Shown here: in pieces, positions 17,950-36,601 of the stretch | Layout: each line of letters opens with the position of its first letter | How positions within the stretch are numbered: position 1 is the stretch's first letter | From: Stenotrophomonas maltophilia | Lineage (GTDB): Bacteria > Pseudomonadota > Gammaproteobacteria > Xanthomonadales > Xanthomonadaceae | Direction of reading: 5' to 3' | Assembly (NCBI RefSeq): GCF_006970445.1 | Contig: NZ_CP033877.1 | Coordinates: forward strand, 1,062,750 to 1,126,749 | DNA: 64,000 nt | Program-made: the position numbers and the translations under genes | The notes under the pieces: generated by a model | What the model was told of the DNA's origin: nothing | What the model saw: only the letters and a program-made list of their open reading frames with translations | Database searches by the model: none

Positions 17950-17978
17950 ATGCGTTTTTCGATGCCTGACCGGGATTC

Positions 17979-18022
17979 ATCCACGCATGGCGTGGATCTA
18001 CTGTGTCGACCAAGGTCGACAC
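17979..18022. repeat. Two adjacent REP palindromes
   Basis: ATCCACGCATGGCGTGGAT followed by CTAC (17979-18001) is directly followed by GTGTCGACCAAGGTCGACAC (18003-18022). They belong to two different GTAG-headed families, each found elsewhere in the window. Confidence 0.85.
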
Positions 18023-18050: not shown

Positions 18051-18234
18051 GGCGGGGCGGTGTGGGTGGGCAGGACCGTTGGCGCCATGGATGGCGCCAT
18101 CGAGCCCCCAGGGGTGAGGGCGCTTTGCTTGCGAAGCACTGCTTCGCAAGCGCCCGAACGCACAGCCGCCAGCGGCTGGGCCGGACCGCGGAGCGGGGTT
18201 TACGGCGTGTCCTGCCTACCCACACCGCCTCGCC
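18051..18234. repeat. Large conserved-core hairpin, copy A (long variant)
   Basis: Outer arms of 26 bases (18051-18076 and 18209-18234) match at 24 positions; both differences would be G-U pairs in RNA. The inner core starts with GTTGGCGCCATGGATGGCGC followed by CATCGAG, as in the copy at 36498. Unlike the other two copies it has an internal hairpin at 18118-18155 (GCTTGCGAAGC/GCTTCGCAAGC). CTGTCAGA precedes the left arm, as at 36491. Confidence 0.75.
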
Positions 18235-18267
18235 ATCCCTCGGAATGCCGCTTTTGCTGTTGCTGTT

Positions 18268-18290
18268 GCCGGCCAGCGGCCGGCACTACC
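18268..18290. repeat. SMAG-type REP palindrome
   Basis: GCCGGCCAGCGGCCGGC followed by ACTACC, the same as at 7366-7388. It is preceded by a GCTTTTGCTGTTGCTGTT stretch and lies just beyond the rapZ stop. Confidence 0.85.
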
Positions 18291-18323
18291 AGCGGGTGCC
18301 GGGCGCAGCCCGGCCGACCACCT

Positions 18324-19208
18324 TCAATCCTGTTCGCGGTGGTAGGTCGCCACGTCTTCCCAGCCCATCTCGCGGGCATGCCGGGCCATGCGCTCGGCCA
18401 GGAACACCGAGCGATGCTTGCCGCCGGTGCAGCCGAATGCCACGGTCACGTAGCTGCGGGTGCCGTCGCCCAGTTTCGGCAGCCAGGTATCGAGGAAATC
18501 CATCAGCTGGGTCAGGTAGCGCTGCACGTCCGGCTGCGCCTCCAGGTAATCGCGTACGCCCGGTTCGCGGCCGCTGAGCGCACGCAGGTCCGGGTCCCAG
18601 TGTGGATTGGGCAGCACGCGGGCGTCGAACACGAAGTCCGCCTCGGCGGGCACGCCACGCTTGTAGGCGAACGATTCGAACAGCAGCGACAGGCCGGTGG
18701 CATGGTCCATCGCGAACTCGGTGATGATCCGCCGCCGCAGCTGATGCACGTTGAGGTTGCTGGTATCGATCACCGCATCGGCCTCTCGGCGCAACGGCGC
18801 GGTCAGCTCGCGCTCGCGGGCGATCGCTTCGGGCAACGACAGGCCCAGCTGGCTCAGTGGATGGCGACGACGGGTGTCGGCGTAGCGCTTGAGCACCGTT
18901 TCATCGCTGGCCTCGAAGAACAGCACTTTCACTTCCACGCCGGCATCGGCGGCCAGCTGCCGCCAGTCGCCCAATTGGCTCAGGTCGGCCTGGCCGCGCA
19001 CGTCGATGCCCACCGCCAGCCGGCGCGGCGCGCTGCCGTCATGGTTGGCCAGCAGGCTGCGCACGAAGTCCGGCAGCAGGTGGATCGGCAGGTTGTCCGA
19101 GCAGTAGTAGTCCTGGTCCTCGAAGGTCTTCAGGGCGACGGATTTACCCGAGCCGGACAGGCCGCTGACGATGATCAGGGTCGGGGCGGTGGGGGTTGCG
19201 GTGCTCAT
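18324..19208 (-). CDS. rapZ: RNase adapter / nucleotide-binding protein RapZ
   Basis: A 294-residue protein with an N-terminal Walker A GLSGSGKS (about 16-23) and a C-terminal domain with the conserved [13 protein letters not shown] segment. In enterobacteria RapZ guides RNase E to the GlmZ small RNA and so tunes glucosamine-6-phosphate synthesis. Whether that holds here is unknown. It sits 27 bases after hprK, the typical PTS-Ntr neighbourhood. Confidence 0.95.
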
Positions 19209-19235
19209 GGACAGGCTCTTCGAGGGGCAGGGGAA

Positions 19236-20186
19236 TCAGGGTGTTCGCCGTTCCAGCAGATTGCTGTGGCGGGCGATGAACATGGCCGCCGGGTCAATGC
19301 CCTTGGTGCGCAGGATGTGCAGGCGGGTGGCGGCCTCGGTCAGCACGGCCAGGTTGCGGCCAGGCATCACCGGCAGGGTGATCAGCGGAACGTCCAGGTC
19401 CAGCACATGGCGGGTGCCCGAGTCGCCGGTCAGGCGCTCGTAGCCATGCGGGGTGGGTTCGGTCATCGGCTTGGTCAGGTGGACGATCAGCCGAAGGTAC
19501 TTGTTCTTCTTTACAGCCGTGTCGCCGAACATCTCGCGCACGTTCAGCACGCCCAGGCCGCGCACTTCCAGCAGGTCCTGCAGCAGTTCGGGGCAGGTGC
19601 CGTCGAGCACGTCCGGGGCGATCTGGGTGAACTCGGGGGCGTCGTCGGCGACCAGGCGGTGACCACGGCTGAGCAGTTCCAGTGCCAGCTCGCTCTTGCC
19701 CGACCCGGCCTCACCGGTGATCAGCACGCCGATGGAATAGATCTCCATGAACACGCCGTGCAGGATCACCCGCGGCGCCAGCGTACGCGCCAGATGGTAG
19801 GACAGGTGGTTGAGCAGTTCGTGGCCGCGCTTGGGCGACAGCCACAGCGGTGTGCCGGATTCGTCCGCGGCGGCGCGCAGGTCTTCCGGGCACGCCTGGT
19901 TGCGGGTCAGCACCAGCGCCAGCGGATGCGACTGCATGATCTTTTCGATGGTCTCCCAACGCTGGCGCGGTTCCAGTGCATCCAGCCAGGACAGTTCCTC
20001 GGTGCCCAGGATCTGCACCTTGTTGGGATAGATGGCGTTGAGGTAGCCGGCCAGCGAGGGGCGCCGCGAGACCGTGTTGCCGGCCTCCAGCTCGCGCTTC
20101 TCTCCGGATTTGCCGGCGGCCCAGCGCAGCCCCAGCCGCTCGCGCTGCTGTTCGAACAGTTCACGGGCGGTGATGCTGGTATTCAT
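19236..20186 (-). CDS. hprK: HPr kinase/phosphorylase
   Basis: Bifunctional enzyme that phosphorylates and dephosphorylates the regulatory serine of HPr. The 316 residues contain the variable N-terminal domain and the catalytic domain with P-loop GEAGSGKS at about 158-165, followed by the HprK signature segment around [14 protein letters not shown]. It overlaps ptsN by four bases. HprK is missing from enterics but common in xanthomonads. Confidence 0.96.
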
Positions 20187-20635
20187 GCGGCACTCGCAGG
20201 TGGGGTCATGTCCAGCGCCTCGCGCAGGGCCCGGGCATCGCCCGCCTCGCGCAGGGCCTGGCGGATGTCGGGCGCGGAGAACAGCTCGGCCAGCTCGGAC
20301 AGCAGCATCAGGTGCTGGTGGGTGTAGTGGGCGGGGACGGCCATCGCGAACACCAGGTCCACCGGCTCATCGCCGCCGAAATCGACCGGGGTCGCCAGAC
20401 GCAGCAAGGCGCCACGGGGGCGGTCCAGGGTCGGCGCGCGGCCGTGGGGGATGGCAATACCGTGGCCGATCGCGGTGCTGCCCAGGGCTTCGCGCTGGCA
20501 CAGGTTCAGATAGATCTGTTCGGCGTTGGCCTGGCGGCAGGCCAGCAACCCGGCGGCGGCCTGCAGGACGCTGTCACGGTCGGTGGCCGTGCAGAGCTGG
20601 GTCTGCACGGCCGCCAGGAGGTCAGTCAGGGGCAT
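20183..20635 (-). CDS. ptsN: Nitrogen-related EIIA protein
   Basis: A 150-residue EIIA of the fructose/mannitol fold. The phosphorylated histidine is H64 in [12 protein letters not shown]. PtsN couples phosphorelay state to potassium, nitrogen and envelope stress responses in other proteobacteria. It lies between hpf and hprK in the normal rpoN-linked order. Confidence 0.95.
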
Positions 20636-20656
20636 GTCTGCGGGGAACGGTGGCGA

Positions 20657-20974
20657 TCAGCCACCATTGTCGCCCACCGGCAGCGGTGCGTGCTGCTGTT
20701 TTTTCTCCTTGTGCTTGATGACCAGGCGGTCAAGCTTGTCCGCAAGCAGGTCGATCGCGGCATACATGGTCTGGCCGCCGGCCTCGGCGTGCAGGGTCTG
20801 CCCCGGAATGTTGAGGCTGGCGTCGACGTGGTGTTCGGTCTTCTGCAGCTTGAGGGTCACCCGCGCTTCGCAGTGCTGGTCGAAGTGTTTTCCGATCCGG
20901 GCCAGCTTCTCCTCTACATAGGACTGCAGGGCCGGGGTGACTTCGACGTCTTTGCCAAACGTTTCGATGCGCAT
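20657..20974 (-). CDS. hpf: Ribosome hibernation-promoting factor
   Basis: A 105-residue protein of the YfiA/HPF group, which binds the 30S decoding region and stores ribosomes in stationary phase. The conserved opening MRIETFGKDVEVTPALQSYV and the middle HVDASLNIPGQTLHAEA fit the family. It is the short form without the dimerising C-terminal domain. It follows rpoN by 58 bases. Confidence 0.95.
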   Translation of the reverse strand: MRIETFGKDVEVTPALQSYVEEKLARIGKHFDQHCEARVTLKLQKTEHHVDASLNIPGQTLHAEAGGQTMYAAIDLLADKLDRLVIKHKEKKQQHAPLPVGDNGG

Positions 20975-21032
20975 CGGGTTTCTCCTGTGTTCGGATGTGC
21001 CAATGAACCTCTCCGCCGGGCGCGGCGGCGCG

Positions 21033-22454
21033 TCAAGCGATTCTGACCCTTTCGTGCGAGGCGGAGATGTTCATGGCTTCACGATACTTCGCCACGGTGC
21101 GCCGCGCTACTGGAATTCCCGACGATTTGAGCAGGTCAGCCAGCTTGGCGTCAGAAAGCGGCTTGCGCGGGTTCTCATCGTCGATCAGGCGCCGGATCAT
21201 CGCCTGGATGGCCGTGCTGGACGCCTCGCCACCGCCCTCGGTATCGATGCCCGAGGCGAAGAAGGCGCGCAGCGGCAGGGTGCCGCGCGGCGTACGCACG
21301 TGCTTGCGGGCGATCGCGCGCGACACCGTGGATTCGTGCAGGCCCAGCTCGGCGGCGATCTCGCGCAGGGTCAGCGGGCGCAGCGCCTGCTCGCCGAATT
21401 CGAGGAAGCCTGCCTGTTGCAGGATCAGGCTGCGCACCACCCGCAGCAGGGTTTCGCCGCGCTGCTGCAGGCCCTTCAGCAGCCAGCGCGCCTCCTGCAG
21501 CTGGCCGCGCAGGTAGCCGGCGTCGGCCTCGCCACAGCGGCGGATCAGCTGTTCGTAGCCCCGGTGGATCACCACCTTCGGCCCGGCGTGGGCCGCCAGC
21601 GCCGCGCGCCAGATGCCGTTCTGCCGCCACACCACCACGTCGGGCACCACGTAGGTGTCCTGCGAAAGCGGCGCGATCTGCGTGCCCGGGCGCGGGTCCA
21701 GCGAGCGCAGCAGGGCGACCGCCGTGTCGACCTCGTCCAGTGGCTGTTTCAGTTCATGGGCCAGCCCGGCGACGCCACTGCGCGGCAGCCGTTCCAGCGG
21801 CCCTGCGGCAATCTGTCGCGCCAGCGCCAGCCCCGGCGTGTCGGCAGGCAACACGTCCAGCTGCAGCTGCAGGCACTCGCCGAGCGTGCGCGCGGCAACG
21901 CCGACCGGGTCGAAGCGCTGGATGCGATGCAGCACTGCAAGGATTTCAGCCTCATCGGCATGGACCGACGGCAGCAGGGTTTCGGCGATGGTGGCCAGCG
22001 GTTCGCGCAGGTAGCCGTCGTCGTCCAAGGCATCGATCAGCGCAGCGCCGATGCTGCGGTCATGCATGGAAAGATGCGACAGGTGCAGCTGCCACAGCAG
22101 GTGGTCGGCCAGCGTCTCGGTTTCGGCCACGCGCTCGGCGGCGCTGCCGGTGTCATCGTCATCATCGAAGCTGCCGCCACTGCCGGCGGCGCTCCAGTCG
22201 AGTTCGGCCGGTGCCCAGTCGTCGCCGCTGTCGGTGCGTTCGGCGGAGGCGTCGGCATCCGTGCTGTCGACGCCTTCATTGGCGGCACTGCTGTCGTTGC
22301 TGTCGGCCCAGTCCAGCAGTGGATTGCTTTCCACGGCCTGGGCGATTTCAAGCTCCAGCTCGGTCGTGGACATCTGCAGCAGCTTGATCGCCTGCTGCAG
22401 CTGGGGCGTGAGCACCAGCTGCTGTCCCAACGATGTCTGCAGCCGAGTCTTCAT
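21033..22454 (-). CDS. rpoN: RNA polymerase sigma-54 factor
   Basis: Sigma factor for -24/-12 promoters that need enhancer-binding activators, such as those for pili, flagella and nitrogen genes. The 473 residues open with the glutamine-rich region I (MKTRLQTSLGQQLVLTPQLQ). An acidic linker lies at about 60-115, a helix-turn-helix near 360-400 and the RpoN box ARRTVAKYRE near 450. ATG 22454 was chosen because homology begins there. Confidence 0.97.
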   Translation of the reverse strand: MKTRLQTSLGQQLVLTPQLQQAIKLLQMSTTELELEIAQAVESNPLLDWADSNDSSAANEGVDSTDADASAERTDSGDDWAPAELDWSAAGSGGSFDDDDDTGSAAERVAETETLADHLLWQLHLSHLSMHDRSIGAALIDALDDDGYLREPLATIAETLLPSVHADEAEILAVLHRIQRFDPVGVAARTLGECLQLQLDVLPADTPGLALARQIAAGPLERLPRSGVAGLAHELKQPLDEVDTAVALLRSLDPRPGTQIAPLSQDTYVVPDVVVWRQNGIWRAALAAHAGPKVVIHRGYEQLIRRCGEADAGYLRGQLQEARWLLKGLQQRGETLLRVVRSLILQQAGFLEFGEQALRPLTLREIAAELGLHESTVSRAIARKHVRTPRGTLPLRAFFASGIDTEGGGEASSTAIQAMIRRLIDDENPRKPLSDAKLADLLKSSGIPVARRTVAKYREAMNISASHERVRIA

Positions 22455-22494
22455 GCCTGTGCCGAACGGAAGGAAAGGGACCCGGCGCCAGCGG

Positions 22495-23213
<719 letters not shown>

Positions 23214-23214
<1 letters not shown>

Positions 23215-23780
23215 TACTTCTTGCTCCCGGCCGGCTTGGCCGGCGTGCTGGCCGGAGCCGTCGCCTTGGGCGCGGCCGCCGGCTGTGCCGCCGGGTTCTT
23301 GTTCTTCGGCGGAATGACGGTGCGCACGCGGCTGCCATCGCCGCCGGAGTTCATCTCGCCGCTGCGGGTGTTGTAGACCATGCGCTGGCCGGCATTGGTG
23401 CCGCGCGCGCTGGTGACCTTGTAGTTGCCGGTCAGGGTGATGATCTCGGTCTTGATGTCGTAGTCGATGCGATCGGCCACCGCGTCCATCCAGGTACCGT
23501 CGTCGAGCTGCTGCTTCATCGTGGCCTGCTTGCCGGTGAACACCGCACGCACGGCCTCGCCGTCCTTCAGGTAGATCTCGGCTTCGGACGAGCGGATGTC
23601 CAGCGAGCCCTGGGTGACGGTCACGCCCTGCGAGAGCACGGTCTTGCCATCGCCGGTGAGCACGCCGGACTGGGCGCCGGAGTCGATGTTCATGTTCTCG
23701 TTGCGGTCGGTGGACTTGGCAAAGGCAGCGCTGGGAACAAGGAGACCGAGCGCGAGTACGGCTGCAAAGGGAATCTTCAT
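23214..23780 (-). CDS. lptA: LPS transport periplasmic protein LptA
   Basis: Builds the periplasmic bridge carrying lipopolysaccharide to the outer membrane. The 188 residues start with a signal peptide (cleavage after about AFA, residue 21) and the OstA-like beta-jellyroll (about 28-150). An unusual Ala/Pro/Lys-rich tail of about 30 residues ends in GSKK. It overlaps lptB by one base. Confidence 0.93.
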
Positions 23781-23881
23781 CGGGGTCCGTTCTACCGGTG
23801 GGGCCGCCCGGAAAACCGGGGGCGGGTGGGTGGGCTGCCTGCCTTGCGCCTGTCCGGGGACGTCGCAGGAGGGCGGCGGAA

Positions 23882-24457
23882 TCAGCGTCGGGGCGTGTAA
23901 CGGCCCTTGGACTGGCTGAGGAAATGATACGTGTTGTTCTTCGAATCCACCTCGAAGCCAACGCCGGACTGTTCCATGCCGGGGCGGGTCATCGTGACCA
24001 GCGCATCGGTGCGGGCACGGTTCTCCTTCGGGAACACGTCCAGGTGGTCGGTGCGGAAGGTGGTCGGCACCACGCCCGGATCGGCCGGGCTGTCGCCGGC
24101 GACATTGCCGCGCAGCTTCATCTCGTCGCCCTTGGCGCTGAGCCAGCCGGTCTCGGCACGCAGGGTCCAGTGCTTGCCATCCTTGTCGGGCATCTCGAAC
24201 AGCGGGGTGGCGATGTTGATGGTCTGGTCGCCACGCTGGCGTTCCAGCAACGGCGCGCGCAGGGTCGTCGATTCCTTGCCGTGCTCATCCAGCGCGACGA
24301 TCTGGAAGTCGTGCAGGATGTAGTCCACGCCGACTTCCTGGCCGGCAGTGGCCGGGCCCTTGTCGCGGTTGCGCAGGGCGGCCCAGCTGCTGAGGAGGGC
24401 CGCCAACAGCAGGCCGATGCCGAGCACGGTGCGCCAGTTCAGGGTCGGCAGGTTCAT
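23882..24457 (-). CDS. lptC: LPS export protein LptC
   Basis: A 191-residue single-pass membrane anchor with the transmembrane segment [19 protein letters not shown] (about 10-28) and a periplasmic jellyroll that hands LPS from LptBFG to LptA. Its start overlaps the kdsC end by four bases. A 101-base gap without a visible signal separates it from lptA. Confidence 0.93.
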
Positions 24458-25002
24458 GCGCCGAACCTCGCCAGCACCGCATCCACATGGCCCTGGGCGG
24501 CCAGCAGGATGTCGCACAGCTCACGGGCTGCGCCACGTCCGCCATCGGCACGGGTCTGCCAGTGCACGCGCTCGGCGATCCACGGGTGGGCGTTGGCCGG
24601 CGCCACCGCCAGCCCGACCGCGCCAAGCGGCGCCAGGTCCGGCAGGTCGTCGCCCATGAAGGCCACCTGCTCCAGGCCGATGCCGTGCTGCGCACACAGC
24701 GCCTGCACGCTGGCCAGCTTGTCGCCCACGGCGATCTGGGTATCGATGCCGAGGTCGGCGCCGCGCTTGAGCGCGGACTGGCTGTTGCGCGCGGTGATCA
24801 GCACGGGGTGGATGCCGTGCTGCTGCAGCAGTTTCAGGCCCAGGCCGTCCTGCACGAAGTATGCCTTGCTCTCGTTGCCGTCCTTGTCGTAGTACAGCCG
24901 ACCGTCGGTGAGGGTGCCGTCCACGTCAAAGCAGGCCAGGCGGACGCGGGCCGCGGCGGCATGCAGGTGGGCGGGAAAGGCGGGCAGGGGGGACCAGGGC
25001 AT
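24454..25002 (-). CDS. kdsC: 3-deoxy-D-manno-octulosonate 8-phosphate phosphatase
   Basis: HAD-family phosphatase that releases KDO for LPS inner-core synthesis. The nucleophile and acid are D26 and D28 in CFDVDGTLTDG. ITARNSQ and a late GDDLPDLAPL give the other HAD motifs. The length of 182 residues is normal for the cap-less KdsC tetramer. kdsD is 65 bases upstream. Confidence 0.95.
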   Translation of the reverse strand: MPWSPLPAFPAHLHAAAARVRLACFDVDGTLTDGRLYYDKDGNESKAYFVQDGLGLKLLQQHGIHPVLITARNSQSALKRGADLGIDTQIAVGDKLASVQALCAQHGIGLEQVAFMGDDLPDLAPLGAVGLAVAPANAHPWIAERVHWQTRADGGRGAARELCDILLAAQGHVDAVLARFGA

Positions 25003-25067
25003 CAGGGCGGCAGGCTCGATAGGTTCGGGTGGGCAGTACAGACTGAATGGGGTCTACGGACTGTCGG

Positions 25068-26069
25068 TTAAACCACCCGGGCCCGCAACAGGTCATGAAT
25101 GTTCAGGGCGCCGACCGCACGACCCTGGCCGTCGACCACGATCAGGCCGGTGATCTTGTGGGTCTCCATCAGCCGGGCGGCCTCAACGGCCAGCTGGTCG
25201 GCACCGATGGTGCGCGGGTTGCGGGTCATCACATCGGCGATCTTCGCAGTCCGTACGTCCAGCGCACTGTCCAGCGCGCGGCGCAGGTCGCCGTCGGTGA
25301 ACAGGCCGATCAGCACGCCGTCGGCGTCGACCACGGCGGTCATGCCCAGCCGTTTGCGGCTCATTTCCATCAGCGCTTCGCTGAGGCTGGCGTCGGCACC
25401 TACGCTGGGCAGGTCTTCGCCGGTGTGCATGACGTCGGTGATGTGCAGCAGCAGGCGGCGGCCGAGGCTGCCGGCCGGGTGCGAGCGGGCGAAGTCGTCG
25501 GCGGTGAAGCCGCGCGCGTCAAGCAGGGCCACGGCCAGCGCATCGCCCATCGCCAGCGAGGCGGTGGTGCTGGAGGTCGGCGCCAGCGCCAGCGGGCAGG
25601 CCTCGGCCGGCACGCTCACGTCCAGGTGGATGTCGGCGGCGGTGGCCAGGCTCGACTGCGGGCGGCCGGTCATGGAGATCAGCACGTTGCCCTGGCGCTT
25701 GAGCACCGGCAGCAGCATCAGCACCTCGTCGGACTCACCGGAATAGGACAGGGCCAGCACCACGTCGTCCTCGGTGATCATGCCCAGGTCGCCGTGGCCG
25801 GCTTCGCCGGGGTGCACGTAGAACGCCGGCGTACCGGTGGAAGCCAGGGTGGCGGCGATCTTGCGGGCGATATGCCCGGACTTGCCCATGCCGGTGGCGA
25901 CCACCCGCCCGCGGCTGGCCAGGATCGCCTGGCAGGCCTGCTGGAAGGCCTCGCCGAGGCGATCGGCCACGGCATCCAGCGCCTGCCGCTCGATCTCGAA
26001 GACGCGGCGGCCGCTGGCGACCAGGCCGGCAGGGTCGACGGAACGGGGGGGCAACAGGGATTCGGCCAT
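25068..26069 (-). CDS. kdsD: D-arabinose-5-phosphate isomerase
   Basis: Turns ribulose-5-phosphate into arabinose-5-phosphate, the first committed step of KDO synthesis. The SIS domain (about 40-180) carries ATGMGKSGHIARK and SYSGESDE, followed by a CBS pair (about 205-333). The start ATG 26069 gives 333 residues; a longer open frame upstream has no family similarity. It is divergent from ibaG/murA. Confidence 0.96.
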   Translation of the reverse strand: MAESLLPPRSVDPAGLVASGRRVFEIERQALDAVADRLGEAFQQACQAILASRGRVVATGMGKSGHIARKIAATLASTGTPAFYVHPGEAGHGDLGMITEDDVVLALSYSGESDEVLMLLPVLKRQGNVLISMTGRPQSSLATAADIHLDVSVPAEACPLALAPTSSTTASLAMGDALAVALLDARGFTADDFARSHPAGSLGRRLLLHITDVMHTGEDLPSVGADASLSEALMEMSRKRLGMTAVVDADGVLIGLFTDGDLRRALDSALDVRTAKIADVMTRNPRTIGADQLAVEAARLMETHKITGLIVVDGQGRAVGALNIHDLLRARVV

Positions 26070-26123
26070 GCGGACGCCACGCAGCGGAAGTAGAATGGAG
26101 GCACATTTTATTAGGAAAGCCCG

Positions 26124-26354
26124 TTGGACGCCGACACCATCCGCAACCTGATCGAAACCGGCCTGCCCGGCGCCCGCGCCGACGTGCAGGGCGACGATGG
26201 CGTGCATTTCGAAGCGACCGTGGTCTGCGAGGCCTTTGCCGGCAAGATGCCGCTGGCCCGCCATCGGATGGTCTATGCCACCCTGGGCGACCTGATGGGC
26301 GGCGCGATCCACGCGCTGGCGCTGAAAACCGTGACCCCGGCCGAAGCCGGCTGA
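26124..26354 (+). CDS. ibaG: BolA/IbaG-family iron metabolism protein
   Basis: A 76-residue stand-alone BolA-like domain, starting with TTG behind AGGAAAG. The conserved core FAGKMPLARHRMVYATLGDLM holds the histidine used by family members to bind a [2Fe-2S] cluster with monothiol glutaredoxins. It is directly upstream of murA, which is the usual setting of ibaG (yrbA). Confidence 0.92.
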   Translation: MDADTIRNLIETGLPGARADVQGDDGVHFEATVVCEAFAGKMPLARHRMVYATLGDLMGGAIHALALKTVTPAEAG

Positions 26355-27970
<1,616 letters not shown>

Positions 27971-28000
27971 GAAAACGCCCGCGCAAGCGGGCGTTTTCTT
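27971..28000 (+). terminator. Rho-independent terminator of ibaG-murA-EF-hand
   Basis: AAAACGCCCGC-GCAA-GCGGGCGTTTT immediately after the stop codon, with an A-run before and a T-run after, so it could work in both directions. Confidence 0.9.
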
Positions 28001-28012
28001 TGGGGTACACCC

Positions 28013-28070
28013 ATCCACGCATGGCGTGGATCTACTTCAGGTTTCCAGTAGATCCACGCCATGCGTGGAT
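28013..28070. repeat. Inverted pair of GTAGATCCACGC-type REPs
   Basis: ATCCACGCATGGCGTGGAT followed by CTAC (28013-28035) faces GTAGATCCACGCC-ATGCGTGGAT (28048-28070) across 12 bases. Paired head-to-head REPs of this family also lie at 43653-43737. Confidence 0.85.
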
Positions 28071-28085
28071 GACGTGGATCTCCGG

Positions 28086-28769
28086 TCAGTTCATCGCCTT
28101 GATGGTCAGGTCCAGCGCATCGCGGTCGTTTTCCCGCTGCAGCATGCGTGCCGGCACCGGGAACTCCGGCACGATCCACGCGATCAGTTCCTTGTTGCCA
28201 TCGGCACGCGAGACCTTGGTGGCTTCGTAGCTCTTGCCGCCCACGGTGATCGACTCCTTGCCGATCACGCGGTAGGTCATGTTCTTGATGCGGCCTTCGT
28301 CGACCATGCGATAGGTCAGCGGCTTGCCGGCGGCCAGGTCGCGGGCGATCGCCAGGTTGATCAGCAGTGCATCCATGTCACCGGATTTCAGTGCGATCGG
28401 GCCGGCGCGGTCCGGCTTGATGTCACCGGTCCAGGTGGCCTGGTTGCTGGACCAGTTGTAGTTGGCCTGCACATTGCGCTTCTTCACCAGCAGCGCCGAA
28501 CGGTCCTGGCTGCTGAGCGGGCGCAGCTGGCCGCGCACCTCTTCGAACACGGTGCTCTGGCTCAGGTCGGCCAGCTGGTTCTTCACCTGCAGCGTGTAGC
28601 GCCACTTGTTGGCGCCCTCGCTGCTCAGCGTCATGCTGCCATTGGCCTGCATGCCCATGTAGCTGGCCAGGTAATCGGCCTTGAACGGCTGCAGGGCCAT
28701 GGCCGGCAGGCTGGCCACCGACAGCGCGGCTGCAGCGATCCAGGTGAGGGGGCGGGTCAGGGTGCTCAT
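28086..28769 (-). CDS. DUF3108 domain periplasmic protein (copy 2)
   Basis: A 227-residue protein with a signal peptide cleaved after about residue 25 (PAMA-LQPF). The DUF3108 fold is a beta-rich domain of unknown role. It is a clear paralogue of the gene upstream: both share QSTVFEE and ALLINLAI with similar spacing, and both end in a RILQRE/RMLQRE-type segment. The genes are two bases apart, so a tandem duplication in one transcript is likely. Confidence 0.82.
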   Translation of the reverse strand: MSTLTRPLTWIAAAALSVASLPAMALQPFKADYLASYMGMQANGSMTLSSEGANKWRYTLQVKNQLADLSQSTVFEEVRGQLRPLSSQDRSALLVKKRNVQANYNWSSNQATWTGDIKPDRAGPIALKSGDMDALLINLAIARDLAAGKPLTYRMVDEGRIKNMTYRVIGKESITVGGKSYEATKVSRADGNKELIAWIVPEFPVPARMLQRENDRDALDLTIKAMN

Positions 28770-28771
28770 GC

Positions 28772-29593
28772 TCAGACTCCTTGGTATTCGATCAGGCGCA
28801 GATCGACGCGGTCTTCGCCGTCTTCGCGTTGCAGGATGCGCACCGGGGTGGGGACACCGTTGGCGATCCAGAGGATGGTTTCGTTGTTGCCGCCGTTGGT
28901 CCGGTAGACCCGCAGCGCGTTGTAGGACAGGTCGCCGACCTCGACGTTCTCGGTCTGCGGCGCGGCCTGGTAGTCGTGCTGGCGGACCTTGCCCATGTCC
29001 ACGTAGCGGTAGTGCATGGTGGCGCCCGGGCGGGCATCACGCATGATCGCCAGATTGATCAGCAGGGCGCTCTGGTCGCCCGGCTGCAGCGGGATCGGCT
29101 GCGCACGGTCCTTCTTGACGTCGCCACTCCACTGCGCGGTGCCGGCCTGCCAGTTGTAGGTGCCGACCGCCTTCTTGCCCAGGAACAGGCCCTTGCGCAC
29201 CGTGCTCTGGCTGAGCGGTGCATAGACGCCGCTGCGCTCCTCGAACACCGTGCTCTGTTCGATGTTCAGGCCCAGCACGCTGGCGAAGCCGCGGCGGCCG
29301 ACCACCTGCATGTCCACCCGCCATTGGTTGCCGCCGGTGTGGGTGACCTGCATGCTGGCGTCGCCGGCCTCCTTGCTCTTGTAAAAGGCCTGGTAGGTGG
29401 CGGTGAACGGCTGCAGCGGCGGCGGCTCCCAGGCCAGCGCCGGAGGCATCGGCACGGCCGGTTCCGCGGGCGGCTGTACAACGGGCACCGGCTGCGCAGG
29501 GGCCGCAGGCGCTTGCGCCTGGCCCCAGCCCACGCCGGGAAGCACGGCCAGCGACAACAGCAGTGAAGTGGACAGCAGGGTCGTGGTCTTCAT
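28772..29593 (-). CDS. DUF3108 domain periplasmic protein (copy 1)
   Basis: A 273-residue protein with a signal peptide (cleavage near GWG-QAQ, about residue 24) and a Pro/Ala-rich linker of about 30 residues before the DUF3108 domain. It is the longer of two adjacent paralogues. DUF3108 proteins often lie downstream of purN, as here, but no function is established. An outer-membrane or lipid-related role would be speculation. Confidence 0.82.
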   Translation of the reverse strand: MKTTTLLSTSLLLSLAVLPGVGWGQAQAPAAPAQPVPVVQPPAEPAVPMPPALAWEPPPLQPFTATYQAFYKSKEAGDASMQVTHTGGNQWRVDMQVVGRRGFASVLGLNIEQSTVFEERSGVYAPLSQSTVRKGLFLGKKAVGTYNWQAGTAQWSGDVKKDRAQPIPLQPGDQSALLINLAIMRDARPGATMHYRYVDMGKVRQHDYQAAPQTENVEVGDLSYNALRVYRTNGGNNETILWIANGVPTPVRILQREDGEDRVDLRLIEYQGV

Positions 29594-29627
29594 GAAGGAC
29601 AGGGACCGCAGGAGGGGGCAGGATGCC

Positions 29628-29646
29628 AGCCCCGCAGTCAGCGGGG
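29628..29646 (-). terminator. Hairpin between purN and the DUF3108 pair
   Basis: GCCCCGC-AGTCA-GCGGGGC, 14 bases after the purN stop on the minus strand. No T-run follows, so it may only weaken read-through into the DUF3108 genes. Confidence 0.4.
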
Positions 29647-29660
29647 CGTGTGCAAGGGGG

Positions 29661-30320
29661 TTACCGGTTCAGGTTCCCGGCGGAATCTAGAGCCAGCGGG
29701 CTAAACAGGGGGTGACCGTCCAGTTGCGGCTGGCCGTCCCGTTCAGCCAGGCGGCCGCTGCACAACAACTGCAGGGTGGCGATCAGCAGCGGATGCTCCA
29801 CCGCCAGCACGCGTGCAGCCAGGCTGTTCGCGTCATCGCCGGGCAGCACCGGCACCCGCACCTGGGCCAGCACGGCGCCAGCGTCCAGCTCGGGCACGAC
29901 CAGGTGCACGCTGGCACCGTGCTCGGCATCGCCGGCGTCCAGCGCCCGCGCATGCGTGTCCAGCCCCTTGTGCGCCGGCAGCAGCGACGGGTGGATGTTG
30001 ACCAGGCGGCCGTCGAAGCGCTGCACGAAGGCGGCGCCGAGGATGCGCATGTAGCCGGCGCAGATGATCCAGTCCGGTGCGACCGCGGCCAGCGCGTCGC
30101 CCAGTGCCTGCTCGTAGGCGGCGCGGTCGACGAATTCCTTCGGTGCGTGTGCCCAGCGCAGGCCAGCGGAGACCCGCTGCAGCGCGGCGGCGGTCGGGCG
30201 GTCGGAAAACACGCCGACCACCGTGGCGGGCAGGCGGCCCGCTGCGATGGCATCGAGGATGGCCTGCAGGTTGCTGCCGCGCCCGGAAGCAAGTACGGCA
30301 ATGCGGGTGGGCGCGGTCAT
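29661..30320 (-). CDS. purN: Phosphoribosylglycinamide formyltransferase
   Basis: Adds the formyl group from 10-formyl-tetrahydrofolate to GAR in purine synthesis. The 219 residues carry the phosphate loop SGRGSNLQ (about 12-19) and the catalytic asparagine and histidine in NIHPSLLP. The start overlaps the stop of the DUF2238 gene by four bases. It lies 1.6 kb from purM instead of adjacent. Confidence 0.95.
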   Translation of the reverse strand: MTAPTRIAVLASGRGSNLQAILDAIAAGRLPATVVGVFSDRPTAAALQRVSAGLRWAHAPKEFVDRAAYEQALGDALAAVAPDWIICAGYMRILGAAFVQRFDGRLVNIHPSLLPAHKGLDTHARALDAGDAEHGASVHLVVPELDAGAVLAQVRVPVLPGDDANSLAARVLAVEHPLLIATLQLLCSGRLAERDGQPQLDGHPLFSPLALDSAGNLNR

Positions 30321-30979
30321 TGCTGGACGCTCCGGCGGACCAACGGCCAGGTCAGCAGGCTGCCTACGGTAGCCATCAGCATGTCGGCATGCGCGTCCCA
30401 CATGTCGCCCTGCTGCCCGTTGTAGGCTTCGGCGGCATCCGGCGACAGGGCAAGCGCGATGGCCCACTCGAACCACTCGTAGACCAGGCTGGCGCACATT
30501 ACGGTCATCACCGCCAGGGTGAAGGCCTGGCCACGGCGCAGCGCCGGCCAGGCATGGCGTGCCAGCTGCAGCAGCGCCGGAGTGAAGCAGACGCCGAACA
30601 GGAAGTGGATGAGGCGGTCGAAATGATTGCGCTGCCAGCCGAACGCCGCATTCGGCGACCAGCCGGTCAGCGCCTGCGCCCATGCATCGTAGGGCACGTT
30701 CGAGTACAGCCAGCGCGCAGCCACGCAGTGCAGGGCGATGAAGCCGCAGATCGCGATGAAGGCACTGTTGCCCAGCCAGCCACCCCGGCGGTCGACCCAC
30801 AGCAGGGCAGCCAGCCCGATCACGGTCAGGGTGCTGTGCAGGGCCTGCTCGGTGGGCCACAGCGGGTGGACCCAGCTGATCGCGAACACCGCCAGCACGG
30901 CGGCGAAGGCCAGCTTCTTGGGGCCCGAGAAACGGGAGGCGGTGGGCGAGGCGGTCGTCGGGAAGGCAGGCGCGGACAT
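30317..30979 (-). CDS. DUF2238/YjdF-like membrane protein
   Basis: About 220 residues with six predicted transmembrane helices. The segment HFDRLIHFLFGVCFTPALLQ and the late MWDAHADMLMATVGSLL are typical of the YjdF (DUF2238) family. Conserved His and Asp residues inside the membrane suggest an intramembrane enzyme, but this is only inference. ATG 30979 lacks a clear ribosome site; TTG 31018 is an alternative. It is coupled to purN by ATGA. Confidence 0.8.
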   Translation of the reverse strand: MSAPAFPTTASPTASRFSGPKKLAFAAVLAVFAISWVHPLWPTEQALHSTLTVIGLAALLWVDRRGGWLGNSAFIAICGFIALHCVAARWLYSNVPYDAWAQALTGWSPNAAFGWQRNHFDRLIHFLFGVCFTPALLQLARHAWPALRRGQAFTLAVMTVMCASLVYEWFEWAIALALSPDAAEAYNGQQGDMWDAHADMLMATVGSLLTWPLVRRSVQQ

Positions 30980-31020
30980 GGGGAGTCGATCAGGGAAGGG
31001 CGGGGCGTCTGCCGGCAAGC

Positions 31021-31443
31021 TCAGACGCTGAGATGGTCGCCGCGGTCGAACAGTGCGGCCATGTCAGGCTTGGAAAGGAACACCCAGGCATAGGCGGTCA
31101 GGGCCATGCCCAGCGGTCCGGCCAGCACCGCCAGCCAGGCCGCGCGCTGGCACCAGGCCAGCCCGGTGCGACGTGACAGCAGGCGCGCGGTGTGCAGCTG
31201 CACGAAGCCAAGCGCGGCAGCCAGCAGTGAAATGACGCCATACACCGTGGCCAGCACCGCGCCATCGTCCAGCCCGCGCGAGCTGGCGACCAGACCGATG
31301 AAACCGAGGAAGGCCAACGCGGCCACCCAGTGGAAAACCGCCAGCGCGTAGAACAGCACCTTCAGCGTCTGCAGGTGGCTGGCCAGCTGCAGGTGCGCCA
31401 GGGTCTGGCGCGGCAGCGGCGGAGGTGCGCCCCGGCTCGTCAT
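31021..31443 (-). CDS. Small membrane protein of unknown family
   Basis: A 140-residue protein with four hydrophobic helices (about 28-48, 60-80 and two after 95). I do not recognise a family. Its ATG overlaps the stop of the next upstream gene (ATGA at 31440-31443), so it is translated together with that membrane protein. It is the second of three membrane-protein genes between purM and purN. Confidence 0.7.
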   Translation of the reverse strand: MTSRGAPPPLPRQTLAHLQLASHLQTLKVLFYALAVFHWVAALAFLGFIGLVASSRGLDDGAVLATVYGVISLLAAALGFVQLHTARLLSRRTGLAWCQRAAWLAVLAGPLGMALTAYAWVFLSKPDMAALFDRGDHLSV

Positions 31444-31928
31444 GCAGCGGTGCCCGCGGTGTCGAACGCGGCCTTGACCTGCGGACGCAGCAGCGTGATC
31501 AGGCTGAACACCCCCAGCACGGTACCGATCGGCGTGAACAGGCAGGCCAGGCCGGCCATGATCAGGCACAGCAGGTAGCGGCGTCTCTGGGCCAGGCAGC
31601 GGCCGGCATAGGCGACGAACGCGCCCAGGGTGACGCCACCGAATACGGCGACGCAACCGATGAGGGTGAACATCCAGCCGAACAGGCGCTGTTCGGCCGG
31701 CGAGGAGGGCTGATCGCCGGAGTTCATCGGCAGATTGCCGGTGAGGGCGGTGATGCCCAGCACGATGTGGACGATGAAGATCATCGAGAACAGCGCGATC
31801 AGGCCACCGACCACGTAGTGCGCGATGGACAGCATGCGCAGGTGGTCAGCATCCTGGGGGCTGAACGCCGGTACCGCGGTCGTTGGCGGCGGCACGGGGA
31901 CGGGGGGCAGGGGGGGCGTTGCGTCCAT
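31440..31928 (-). CDS. Four-helix membrane protein of unknown family
   Basis: A 162-residue protein with a proline-rich cytosolic start of about 28 residues. It then has four predicted transmembrane segments, including IAHYVVGGLIALFSMIFIVH. The arrangement resembles DUF4870-like or SMP-like small membrane proteins but is not diagnostic. It begins 21 bases after purM ends, so it is probably part of the purM transcript. Confidence 0.72.
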   Translation of the reverse strand: MDATPPLPPVPVPPPTTAVPAFSPQDADHLRMLSIAHYVVGGLIALFSMIFIVHIVLGITALTGNLPMNSGDQPSSPAEQRLFGWMFTLIGCVAVFGGVTLGAFVAYAGRCLAQRRRYLLCLIMAGLACLFTPIGTVLGVFSLITLLRPQVKAAFDTAGTAA

Positions 31929-31949
31929 GCGGGCTCCTCGGGGTCGGGT

Positions 31950-33008
31950 TCAGCCGATGTGGACGCGCTCGGCGCCTTCAGCGGTGACCACCTGGCCGAT
32001 GGTCCAGTGATCCAGGCCCTGTGCCTTGACTGCCTCGGACACGGCGGTGACCTGGTCCGCTGCCACGATCAGCACGAAGCCGATGCCGCAGTTGAAGGTG
32101 CGCCACATCTCGCTGTCGGCCACGGCGCCTTCCTTCTGCAGCCACTGGAACACCGGCGGCAGGGCCCAGGACGAGGCCTGGATGTCCAGGCCGAGGCCGT
32201 CGGGCACCACGCGGATGATGTTCTCGGTCAGGCCGCCACCGGTGATGTGGGCCATGCCGTGGATGGCGCCGCCGTGCGACTTCAGCAGCGACAGGATCGG
32301 CTTCACATACAGGCGGGTCGGTGCCATCAGCGCATCGACCAGCTTCACGCCACCTTCCAGTTCCAGGTCGGCCGGGCGGCCGGCGCGGTCGTAGATGCGG
32401 CGCACCAGCGAGTAGCCATTGGAATGCGGGCCGGACGAGGCGATGCCGATCAGCACGTCGCCGGCGGCTACGCTGGCGCCGTCCTTCAGCTCGCTCTTCT
32501 CGACCGCGGCGACCGTGAAGCCGGCCAGGTCGTACTCGCCCGGGGCGTACATGTCGGGCATTTCAGCGGTTTCACCGCCGATCAGCGCGCAGCCGGCCTC
32601 GGTGCAGCCGTTGGCAATGCCGCCCACGACCGCCGCGGCGGTGTCGATGTCCAGCTTGCCGGTGGCGAAGTAGTCCAGGAAGAACAGCGGTTCGGCGCCC
32701 TGCACCAGCACGTCGTTCACGCACATCGCGACCAGGTCGATGCCGATCGTATCGTGGCGGTTCAGCTGGTGGGCCAGCTTCAGCTTGGTGCCCACGCCGT
32801 CGGTACCCGACACCAGCACCGGCTCGCGGTACTTGTTGGACAGGTCGAACAGGGCGCCGAAGCCACCGAGTCCGCCCATCACTTCCGGGCGGAAGCTGCG
32901 CTTGACCAGGGGCTTGATCCGCTCGACCAGCTCGTTGCCGGCGTCGATGTCGACACCCGCGTCACGGTAGGTGAGGGGGGAGGGGGCGGAAGACGGGGTG
33001 TTGGTCAC
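31950..33008 (-). CDS. purM: Phosphoribosylformylglycinamidine cyclo-ligase
   Basis: ATP-dependent ring closure to AIR in purine synthesis. I chose GTG 33008, which gives 352 residues and the family opening [22 protein letters not shown]. Conserved blocks are [30 protein letters not shown] and [11 protein letters not shown]. It is divergent from the DUF2066 gene, with about 100 bases between them. Confidence 0.95.
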
Positions 33009-33107
33009 GGGCGTCGGCGCTGGCAGGGGTTGAACGAGCGATTTTAACAGGCCGCATTGGCGCAAAGGCCGTATTCGGGCAACAATTCCCCCGGATTCGT
33101 CGAGCCA

Positions 33108-34247
33108 ATGGATGTCCTGATGCGCCGCAGCCTGATTCTGACCCTGCTCCTTGCACTGAGCCTGCCGGTGGCCACGATGGCCCAGAGCGGCCTGCGCACC
33201 GAGGGAGATGTCGCCACCGCCTCGGGTGCGTACGAGGCCGAAGTGCCCGTCAACAGCCAGGCCGAAGCTGATCGCAACGGCGCCCTGGCCCGTGCCCTGA
33301 GCGTGGTGCTGGGCAAACTGTCCGGCGACCGCAACGTGATGTCCCGCCCCGGCGTGGTGCAGGCGCTGCGCAATGCCAAGGACTACGTGGCCAGCTACGA
33401 CTACAAGCAGGACCAGAGCGTGGGCGCCAGCGGCGCACCGAGCTTCAGGACCCTGCTGGTGGCCCGCTTCCGCGAGGATGATGTCGATTCGCTGGTCTCG
33501 GCGCTGGGCCTGCCGCTGTGGCCGCAGCCGCGACCGAAGCCGGTGCTGTGGCTGGCCGTCGACGACGGCAGTGGCCCGCGCCTGGTCAGCGTGCAGCAGG
33601 CCAATGCCGCCCGCCCGCTGCTGAACCGCGCCATCGAGCGGGGTTACAAGCTGGGCCTGCCCAGCGGCGGCGCTGCCGAACAGGCCCTGGCCGGTGCCAT
33701 CTGGCGCCAGGACAGCGCCGCCGTGGCCCGTGCCTCCTCGCGCTATTCGCCGCCGATGCAGCTGATCGGAAAGCTGTACCGTGCCAATGGCGGCTGGCAG
33801 GCGGACTGGGTGTTCGTCGACAACGGCCGTGAACTGAACAAGTGGACCAGCAAGGATGCCAACGCCATGCGCGCGATGGCCGCCGGTGCCGATGGCGCCG
33901 CCGATGCGCTGGTCAAGCGATACGCCAAGGCCGGCGTTGCCACCGGCCAGGCCGGCACCTACCGCGTGGTGGTGACCGGCATCAACAGCGCTGATGACTA
34001 CCTGCGCCTGGCCGCCGGCCTGCGCGAGGTGCCGGTGGTGCGCAATGTCACCCCGCTGCACGCCTCGGCTGGCCAGCTGGAGTTGAGCGTGGAGATGACC
34101 ACCGGCCTGGCCGGCTTCAACCGCATGCTCGGCGACAACGGCGTGCTGGTGCCCAGCGCGCCGCTGCCGGCCCTGCCGACCCCGATCGATGACACCACCG
34201 GTGCCCCGGTGGCCGCGCCGGTCAGCAACGAGTACCGGCTGCGATGA
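33108..34247 (+). CDS. DUF2066 domain exported protein
   Basis: About 379 residues with a signal peptide ([21 protein letters not shown]). The DUF2066 domain covers about 30-290. The gene pair purM / DUF2066 is conserved in gammaproteobacteria, but the function is unknown. ATG 33108 and ATG 33120 are both possible; neither has a strong ribosome site. Its stop overlaps the start of the permease gene (ATGA). Confidence 0.85.
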
Positions 34248-35413
34248 CCCTGACCCCGGAAGCTGAAATCGCGCAGTTCCTGCGCCGGCTGAAGTACATC
34301 CTGTTCGCCGGCCTGATCGGCTGGGTGGTGTGGCTGCTGGCGCCGATCCTGACCCCGTTCGTGCTGGCACTGGCGCTGGCCTGGCTGGGTGACCCGCTGG
34401 TGGACCGCATCGAGGCCACCGGCCGCTCGCGCATGACCGGCGTGGTGCTGGTGTTCGCAGCGATGGTGCTGGTGATCGTGGCGCTGCTGCTGGTGCTGGT
34501 GCCGATGATCGAGCGCCAGATCACCACGCTGATCGCGGTTGCACCGCAGGCGCAGGCGTGGCTGATGGAAAAGGGCATTCCCTGGTTCGAGCACAAGACC
34601 GGCCTGGAAGTGATGCAGTGGATGGATCCGGACCGCCTGATCGAATGGGTGCGCAGCCATTGGCAGCAGGCCGGCGGCTTCGCCACCACGTTCATGGGCT
34701 ACGTCTCGCGTTCGGGCTTTGCGATGGTGACCTGGGTGGTCAACATCCTGCTGCTGCCGATCCTGGCGTTCTACTTCCTGCGCGACTGGGACAAGCTGGT
34801 CGAGCGGGTGGCCTCGGTGATCCCGCGCAACCAGATCGGCACCATCAGTGCGCTGGCCCGCGAGTCCAACGAGGTGCTGGGGGCGTTCATCCGCGGCCAG
34901 TTCCTGGTGATGCTGGCGCTGGGCGTGATCTACGCCGGCGGCCTGTCGCTGGTCGGCCTCAAGCTGGGGCTGCTGATCGGCCTGATTGCCGGCCTGATCA
35001 GCTTCATCCCGTACCTGGGCGCGACCACCGGCATCCTGATGGCCATCGTGGCTGCGCTGGTGCAGGCACAGGGTTTCGACCTGAAGCTGCTGATCCTGGT
35101 CGGCGTGGTGTTCACCGTGGGCCAGCTGCTGGAAAGCTACGTGCTGACCCCGCGCATCGTCGGCGACAAGATCGGCCTGCACCCGGTGGCGGTGATCTTC
35201 GCGGTGATGGCCGGCGGCCAGCTGTTCGGCTTCCTCGGCATGCTGCTGGCGCTGCCAGTGGCGGCGGTGACCAACGTGCTGCTGCGTTATGCCCACCAGC
35301 GTTACCGCCAGAGCGAGCTGTACGTGGGCGAGAAGCCGGCGATCGTGCTTGATGGCGTGGTCGACGCCCCCCATATCATCGTTCCGAACGACAAGGGCCC
35401 CGACCTGAAGTGA
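34244..35413 (+). CDS. AI-2E family transporter (PerM/TqsA type)
   Basis: A 389-residue inner-membrane protein with seven or eight helices and a long periplasmic helical stretch (about 85-160). The family block [19 protein letters not shown] is at about 248-266. Members export or move autoinducer-2, sodium ions or other small molecules; the substrate here is not known. Genes on both sides overlap it by one to four bases. Confidence 0.88.
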
Positions 35414-36120
35414 TGGGTGTGCCGCAACTGCCGCTGGCCCTGCATTACCCGCGGGACCAGCGCCTGGAGACCTTCATCGGCGCGCCGGATGGCGCGCTGG
35501 CGCAGCTGCGCGCGATCGCGGTTGGCGCCAGCCACGACTGGGTCTACCTGGAAGGTGCGGCGGGAACCGGCAAGACCCACCAGGCGCTGGCGATGTGCTC
35601 CAGCGCCGAGCAGGCCGGACGCCTGCCGACGTACGTGCCGCTGGCCAGTGCCGCCGGCTGCGTTCGTGCAGCGCTCGATGGGCTGGAAGCCCGCGAACTG
35701 GTGGCGCTGGATGGCCTGGACGAGGTCGCCGGCAACCGGGAGGACGAGATCGCGCTGTTTGATTTCCACAATCGCGCGCGCGCTGCAGGTGTGACCGTGC
35801 TCTACACCGCGCAGAAGGCACCGGGCGAGCTGGGCCTGGTGCTGCCGGATCTGCGCTCGCGGCTGGGCCAGTGCGTGCGCGTGCTGCTGCAGCCGCTGGA
35901 TGAGGAAGGGCGAGCAGCGGTGCTGCGCGAGCGTGCACTGCGACGCGGGCTGGCCATCGACGAGGCGGCCATCGAGTGGCTGCTGTCGCACACCGGTCGT
36001 GAGCTGGGTGGATTGATCACGCTGCTGGACTGGCTGGACCGCGAGTCGCTGGCGGCGAAGCGGCGGATCACCGTGCCGTTCCTGCGCCAGGTGCTGGAAG
36101 AAGGCCGGCCCCGCTACTGA
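35413..36120 (+). CDS. hda: DnaA regulatory inactivator Hda
   Basis: AAA+ protein that, with the DNA sliding clamp, converts DnaA-ATP to DnaA-ADP to stop re-initiation. The 235 residues contain the clamp-binding start QLPLAL, Walker A GAAGTGKTH (about 48-56) and LVALDGLDEV as the Walker B region. ATG 35413 overlaps the upstream stop (TGATG); GTG 35410 is the alternative. Confidence 0.92.
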   Translation: MGVPQLPLALHYPRDQRLETFIGAPDGALAQLRAIAVGASHDWVYLEGAAGTGKTHQALAMCSSAEQAGRLPTYVPLASAAGCVRAALDGLEARELVALDGLDEVAGNREDEIALFDFHNRARAAGVTVLYTAQKAPGELGLVLPDLRSRLGQCVRVLLQPLDEEGRAAVLRERALRRGLAIDEAAIEWLLSHTGRELGGLITLLDWLDRESLAAKRRITVPFLRQVLEEGRPRY

Positions 36121-36204
36121 GGGTGGGGTTTGTTTGCAGGGCTGCGCCCTGCACCCGCCGAAGCCGAAGCAACGTCAACGTCAGAAGCTGGCTTTCTGAG
36201 GGGA

Positions 36205-36306
36205 GGCGGGGTGGCTCAGGTTGCGGCGGACGGCGCAAGTACGTCCATGTAGCCTCGGTCGCGCCATCCATGGCGCTCACGCCCCCGCAACCTGAGCCAC
36301 CCCGCC
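36205..36306 (-). repeat. Large conserved-core hairpin, copy B
   Basis: Perfect 22-base arms (36205-36226 and 36285-36306; the left arm starts GGCGGGGTGGCTCAGG). Read on the minus strand, the inside shows GCGCCATGGATGGCGC, then CGAGGCTACATGGACGTACT and TGCGCCGTCC. This core matches copy C closely while the arms do not. CTGTCGA flanks it on the minus-strand left side. Confidence 0.78.
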
Positions 36307-36359
36307 TTCGACAGGTTCCCGCGATCTGCCGGAACTGCGTATTGCACTGCTGCTGGTGG

Positions 36360-36418
36360 GTGTCGACCTTGGTCGACACGTGTCTTGCTTGTGGTGGGTG
36401 ACGACCGTTGGTCGTCAC
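36360..36418. repeat. Two REP palindromes of different families
   Basis: GTGTCGACCTTGGTCGACAC (36360-36379) and GTGACGACC-GTT-GGTCGTCAC (36398-36418), each preceded by GGTGG. They lie between hairpin copies B and C. Confidence 0.8.
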
Positions 36419-36497
36419 CAGAGCAAGCGCAGCGAAGCAACCCGCTTTTGCTTTTCTTTCTTTCTTCCGTGGCTGGACGCCCACGGAAACTGTCAGA

Positions 36498-36601
36498 GGC
36501 CGGGCGGGTGGGCCATGCAGGGGCGTTGGCGCCATGGATGGCGCCATCGAGCTTACAGGGACGTACTTGCAGCGTCCCCTGCATGGCCCACCCGCCCGGC
36601 C
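36498..36601 (+). repeat. Large conserved-core hairpin, copy C
   Basis: Perfect 26-base arms (36498-36523 and 36576-36601; the left arm starts GGCCGGGCGGGTGGGCC). The inside reads GGCGCCATGGATGGCGCC, then ATCGAGCTTACAGGGACGTA and CTTGCAGCGTCC. CTGTCAGA precedes it. The core is shared with copies A and B and the arms differ. Confidence 0.8.

Follow-up and report, generated by a model that had tools for sequence, protein, structure and literature searches.

We describe a repeated two-hairpin element in a stretch of the Stenotrophomonas maltophilia genome (contig NZ_CP033877.1, positions 1,062,750 to 1,126,749), 64,000 nucleotides (nt) in length and hereafter the window, which holds three copies, A, B and C. 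The element is structured and selected as a single strand, and the loops of both its hairpins fit the binding site of the RNA-binding protein CsrA/RsmA. The reading that we favour, at slightly better than even confidence, is a repeat of the YPAL/RU-2 type (YPAL, Yersinia palindromic sequence) that resembles the Rfam motif TwoAYGGAY, with transcripts that are putative two-site RsmA/CsrA ligands and form a sponge dispersed between genes. Its features in the window are as follows, in window coordinates.

18051..18234, plus strand: copy A, whole element; 26-bp outer stem pairing 18051-18076 with 18209-18234
18081..18098, plus strand: copy A, hairpin 1; loop AUGGAU at 18087-18092
18110..18198 (limits approximate), plus strand: copy A, hairpin 2, split by a nested insert; canonical ANGGAN loop lost
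36204..36307, minus strand: copy B, whole element; hairpin-1 loop AUGGAU at 36266-36271, hairpin-2 loop AUGGAC at 36243-36248
36308..36497, no strand: spacer of the divergent pair B (minus) and C (plus), in which the 5′ sides of the elements face each other
36498..36601, plus strand: copy C, whole element; outer stem pairing 36498-36523 with 36576-36601
36534..36539, plus strand: copy C, hairpin-1 loop AUGGAU
36557..36562, plus strand: copy C, hairpin-2 loop AGGGAC

Paired without gaps, the outer arms form 24 Watson–Crick and two G·U pairs of 26 in copy A, 25 pairs and one mismatch in copy B, and 26 of 26 pairs in copy C. RNA folding gives z-scores of −7.9, −6.5 and −8.6 for A, B and C, respectively, and none of the 200 shuffles made for each is equally stable. 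The extra length of copy A is the nested insert, which lies inside the hairpin-2 loop. An initial annotation of the window had located the three copies (copy B runs from 36204 to 36307) and had noted a common core followed by CGAG in all of them, CTGTC(A/G) ahead of each 5′ arm, and ACGTACTTG common to copies B and C; all of these are present. Its observation that the arms differ between copies holds for A, B and C and fails genome-wide, where many copies have common subfamily arms. Its account of the hairpins as structures was sound, and the fit of both loops to a CsrA/RsmA site had gone unnoticed.

A high-copy element with a conserved head

A pattern built on the 24-base core with hairpin 1 finds 56 matches in the 4.55-Mb host genome at up to three mismatches, and a hairpin-2 pattern finds 132 (67 forward, 65 reverse) at up to two. 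The reversed patterns, used as controls, find 0 and 1, which excludes a chance origin. The initial annotation had allowed for there being no further copies, and the 132 matches settle that point in its favour. One hundred of these matches were listed, and the stretches fetched yielded the 114 elements that form our host set.

The copies follow a plan in which a variable outer stem of about 26 bp bears two hairpins with ANGGAN loops, with GAGC between them and TTTACGGCGT after. From the 5′ side, most host copies begin with CTGTC(A/G), followed by the 5′ arm of about 26 nt, CGTT or CGTG, and hairpin 1, which in the 56 copies is GCGCC-AUGGAU-GGCGC or close to it. A short linker and GAG lead to hairpin 2, which consists of a short stem, an ANGGAN loop, a one-sided bulge (for example UUUAC) and GGC, and is followed by GU and the 3′ arm.

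The paired positions covary. The host-genome alignment comprises 51 of the 56 copies found by the hairpin-1 pattern, the five insert-bearing ones being excluded. Standard pairs fill 96.1% of its cells in the predicted structure. Both partners have changed at 29 of 38 pairs; cells with such a double change number 326, where shuffles give 97 and sliding the partner never gives more than 61. Four of the five helices covary, including the outer stem and hairpin 2; hairpin 1 hardly varies, because the copies had been selected by the hairpin-1 pattern. The cross-species alignment draws on 97 contig loci from other genomes and contains 134 matches, 132 of them distinct, the search with our model R1 having covered 97 of 119 contig loci. 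It was fitted to the structure and so leans towards it; 93.4% of its cells are paired, and all five helices covary (1022 cells versus 293 shuffled and at most 254 slid). The initial annotation had proposed a structure under selection, to be doubted if the arms did not covary. The outer stem covaries in both alignments, and together with the excess of G·U pairs described below this upholds the proposal.

Selection acts on one single strand

A strand that is selected to fold tolerates G·U pairs and not A·C pairs, and these roles reverse on the opposite strand. In the outer stems, counted where the stem lies above our cut (107 of 114 host and 88 cross-species elements), the ratio of G·U to A·C is 69:18 in the host genome and 132:20 across species. 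The excess persists when similar arms are collapsed (80:13 in 63 stems, of which 38 are richer in G·U and 6 poorer) and under the strictest collapse (43:7 in 29 stems, 17 richer and 4 poorer). The strand under selection is therefore the one on which the ANGGAN loops appear, and there is good support for a structured element that is selected in single-stranded form. Read from these counts, the pairing is most simply that of an RNA; a strand-specific form of single-stranded DNA, including one used in mobility, is possible. A count of this kind reveals single-strand selection from sequence alone, and it narrows the choice between RNA and DNA for repeats of this type.

Both loops fit the CsrA/RsmA site

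CsrA recognises the consensus RUACARGGAUGU, whose GGA is presented by a hairpin loop (PMC4347634), and the loops of both hairpins fit it; the hairpin 2 that is common in other species, CUACANGGANGUA, is close to the full consensus. The motif (C/T)ANGGANG is present at hairpin 2 in 51 of the 56 copies found by the hairpin-1 pattern, the remaining five carrying the insert. Across those 51 copies the A and the GGA of hairpin 2 are constant, and both N positions vary.

The cross-species search pattern contained hairpin 2 and omitted hairpin 1. Its contig-scan stretches (at least 119) gave 121 distinct non-edge elements, 120 of which were folded. The hairpin-1 loop holds GGA in 105 of these 120 minimum-energy folds, compared with 68 of 600 when the region is shuffled. 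In sequence, the hairpin-1 region contains A-N-GGA in 104 of 121 elements and GGA in 116 of 121, and 92 of 121 pass a stricter test for a six-base loop on an unbroken stem. Host elements keep A-N-GGA at hairpin 1 in 106 of 114 cases; by reading, the other eight comprise five with a different hairpin and an AGGA loop, one with GAA and two that look damaged. With ANGGAN in the loops of two hairpins, the heads have the form expected of a CsrA/RsmA-binding RNA, which usually offers several such sites; hairpin 1 is better backed by the folds. The host genome has one csrA gene.

Two variants of hairpin 1 were seen in passing. At host positions 424131, 502722, 1978046, 2095125 and 3940998 its site is occupied by a hairpin of the GCGC-AGGAYW-GCGC type, whose loop is still AGGA, and in Halopseudomonas pelagia (L100) hairpin 1 is reversed on an unbroken stem, with the loop AUCCCU for AGGGAU.

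Placement, spread and distribution

Gene calls were made with our own codon-usage scripts. On these calls all 114 host elements are intergenic, and the protein-coding remnant that the initial annotation had considered can be set aside, since 0 of 114 host and 0 of 128 cross-species elements lie inside genes. Host elements occupy 25 convergent, 10 divergent and 43 co-directional intergenic regions (p = 0.017, convergent versus divergent), a count that may include one region twice where fetched stretches overlap. Between co-directional genes, 37 host elements are sense and 26 antisense. Among the 128 cross-species elements, 27 are in convergent, 8 in divergent and 61 in co-directional regions, and 32 lie near a contig end with their context out of reach. 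Neighbouring host elements less than 700 bp apart are ordered minus-then-plus in 37 of 37 cases, at a spacing of 236-384 bp, and B and C are one of these pairs. Several of the pairs join two different subfamilies.

The nested insert of copy A (18113-18195) belongs to a sequence of about 85-95 bp with 14 matches in the genome. It sits inside the hairpin-2 loop, directly after CANGG, in eight of eight cases examined, whatever the arms or hairpin 1. At orthologous sites, anchors were found at A in 28 of 30 loci and at B/C in 19 of 30. The 19 anchored B/C loci comprise six with two elements (our own included), four with one and nine with none by pattern, and where an element is present its subfamily, in arms and hairpins, differs between relatives. 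The second hairpin is intact in the elements of three of the 28 anchored A loci, and one of these three elements belongs to another subfamily; our own locus and two full-length matches are of the insert form, which is invisible to the pattern. Of the loci at A that lack the element, L246 keeps part of the 3′ arm and L243 an arm-like stretch, and judged from these remnants both look like deletions at short repeats and not clean empty sites. The copies have probably been spread and homogenised by transposition-like copying and gene conversion.

Beyond the host, a contig scan with the hairpin-2 pattern returned at least 119 stretches, and the 80 titles listed read as gammaproteobacterial or unresolved Proteobacteria. 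A class sample of Gammaproteobacteria has a match in at least 78 of 370 genomes and at least 66 of 272 genera; this census scored up to 13 candidates per genome, its copy counts are lower bounds, and absence in it is unreliable (G150, a genome of the same genus, shows 0). A csrA gene was found in 77 of the 78 element-positive genomes versus 247 of the 292 without a detected element (Fisher p = 1.8e-4), with the two lists matched by eye and a test that ignores kinship.

A putative dispersed RsmA sponge and its alternatives

In a copy transcribed in the sense direction, the long outer stem, made of any sequence that pairs, would hold up the two-hairpin head and protect the ends of the RNA, and each hairpin would display an ANGGAN loop, mostly closed by C-G. 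The starts of the GGA motifs are 23 nt apart in copies B and C, a distance that we judge to match the pair of RNA-binding faces on a single RsmA/CsrA dimer. On the match of its loops, the element RNA is likely to bind RsmA; more than 100 copies per genome would jointly bind and buffer the protein, and we propose that they may act as a distributed sponge. In this scheme transcription, RsmA binding, titration and end protection are steps that we infer. If RsmA/CsrA binding is true, repeats treated as intergenic filler join a global regulatory circuit.

Several observations weigh against this proposal. The hairpin-2 GGA is looped in no more than 75 of 120 minimum-energy folds across species and 72 of 114 in the host, so that the case for hairpin 2 comes more from covariation than from folding energy, and copy A and other insert-bearing copies persist without a canonical second loop. 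RsmU, an RNA of Xanthomonas, is still bound by RsmA when every GGA is changed (PMC7694677), which means that RsmA recognition involves more than GGA. The elements of one genome, G178, show ANGGAN loops in the five copies fetched, yet no csrA was found there; an assembly gap is possible. Where cross-species elements lie between co-directional genes, 30 are sense and 31 antisense, so many copies would be transcribed antisense by their neighbours. Promoter-like sites upstream of the element are not enriched relative to its other flank by crude consensus scoring, with alternative promoter types outside it. Apart from these points, runs of four T within 40 nt past the 3′ arm occur in only 27 of 114 host and 12 of 114 cross-species flanks. 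Because of these last two results, expression of the element seems to depend on transcription from its surroundings. A stand-alone Rsm small-RNA gene with its own promoter and terminator was rejected on the same absence of promoter enrichment, under the same crude scoring and its restricted range of promoter types.

The strongest competitor, though unlikely in our estimate, is a mobile palindromic DNA element of the YPAL or REP type, in which a mobility enzyme recognises the folded single-stranded DNA including its loops, and the match to a CsrA site is coincidence. Published work describes YPAL as a mobile repeat of intergenic regions that duplicates 3-26 bp of its target and may affect upstream transcripts (PMC2229807). 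Mobility would also account for the 132 matches, for orthologous sites where an element is present, absent or replaced by one of another subfamily and for the strict minus-plus pairing, and strand-specific single-stranded DNA would likewise favour G·T over A·C. It fits poorly with loops that vary only at positions free in the CsrA consensus, and at A, the one site read closely, both readable element-free relatives look like short-repeat deletions and not like clean empty sites.

We regard as improbable that the palindrome merely shapes RNA ends between genes, as an exonuclease block or termination aid, without RsmA. In favour of this reading are a long stem that is perfect on either strand and the excess of convergent over divergent regions in both sets; yet it leaves unexplained two conserved ANGGAN loops in variable stems and the strand-specific excess of G·U, and the scarcity of T-runs after the 3′ arm counts against it as well. 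Least probable is a cis-acting RsmA site in the 3′ untranslated region (3′UTR), acting on the gene that immediately precedes each copy. RsmU provides a precedent as a 3′UTR able to bind RsmA in Xanthomonas (PMC7694677), and among unpaired host copies flanked by co-directional genes 16 lie sense and 5 antisense, but the bias vanishes in the cross-species counts and copies are lost or exchanged at orthologous sites while the flanking genes stay. A general cis role in 3′UTRs is not supported.

Relation to known repeats and RNAs

The initial annotation could match the hairpins to no named family. That view does not stand, as their core is that of YPAL/RU-2 and of Ysr224 on the opposite strand, and their architecture is that of TwoAYGGAY. 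The match to a catalogued repeat, which the same annotation had named as a reason for doubt, is partial, and it does not undo the structure because the arms covary.

YPAL/RU-2, about 168 bp long, shares hairpin 1 (AAGGAU), GAGC, hairpin 2 (AUGGAU) and UUUACGGCGU (PMC2759123, Table 1b), and by eye the printed Y. pestis repeat has the identical core order inside pairing arms, including TTTACGGCGT. Both elements are high-copy and intergenic (PMC2759123, PMC2229807). YPAL is abundant in most Yersinia species (PMC2847712); unlike the present element, it is described in the accessible text of PMC2229807 from Yersinia and Erwinia only. The accessible portions of PMC2759123 and PMC2229807 do not mention CsrA with YPAL/RU-2. 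In the open-access literature we found CsrA and YPAL nowhere together and, of six core strings of the element, one, in PMC2759123 only. Ysr224 (Yersinia sRNA 224, a small RNA; Rfam RF02770) has the same core on its reverse complement, and a Yersinia proxima copy reaches 94 bits against its threshold of 70. Its model is of the opposite strand, and host-genome matches at 20 loci score 19.5-38 bits, below 70. From this comparison the Ysr224 model (RF02770; L060) seems to describe the antisense strand of the YPAL repeat, which may explain the high Ysr224 counts in a survey (PMC9029176).

TwoAYGGAY (RF01731, clan CL00106) matches on the same strand, with an outer stem and two hairpins bearing loops AUGGAU and AUGGAC (L181 alignment). 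All 15 host-genome matches at E ≤ 1 lie on these elements; among the 150 of 289 candidates scored, the best host copy, at 42.8 bits, narrowly misses the gathering score of 43, and no Rfam family has a gathering-score match within the window. MicroRNA and other sub-threshold Rfam matches were taken as chance fits to any long stem. TwoAYGGAY is listed from gut metagenome, gammaproteobacteria and Clostridiales (PMC2864571) and has been proposed to sequester CsrA (PMC4333381); the accessible descriptions in these two sources do not include a high-copy repeat nature.

RsmU and the RsmX/Y/Z-type RNAs carry GGA hairpins and bind RsmA (RsmU: PMC7694677), and differ in that promoter enrichment was not found for the element by the scoring described above. 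RsmU itself, located by its position 25 bp past comEA, was rejected as a member, as this stretch in the three Xanthomonas genomes searched, out of four loci submitted, has other hairpins and gives no model match. REP/SMAG sequences are, like the element, high-copy intergenic palindromes. REPs are described as 20-40 bp long with a GTAG or CGTC tag, whereas the element measures about 104 bp or more, has a two-hairpin head and, by eye, a stem foot without GTAG. Other palindromes adjoin the element at 17978-18022, at 36360-36420 and in the 5′ flanks of many copies, among them GTGTCGACCAAGGTCGACAC and a SMAG-like ATCCACGC..GCGTGGAT with the GTAG end on the opposite strand. SMAG-like palindromes adjoin many copies (name from PMC3733652; identified by eye), and CTGTTG runs were seen on the 3′ side of the element. 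With these comparisons, a Yersinia repeat, an orphan Rfam motif and a small RNA annotated in antisense become one gammaproteobacterial family with a candidate ligand.

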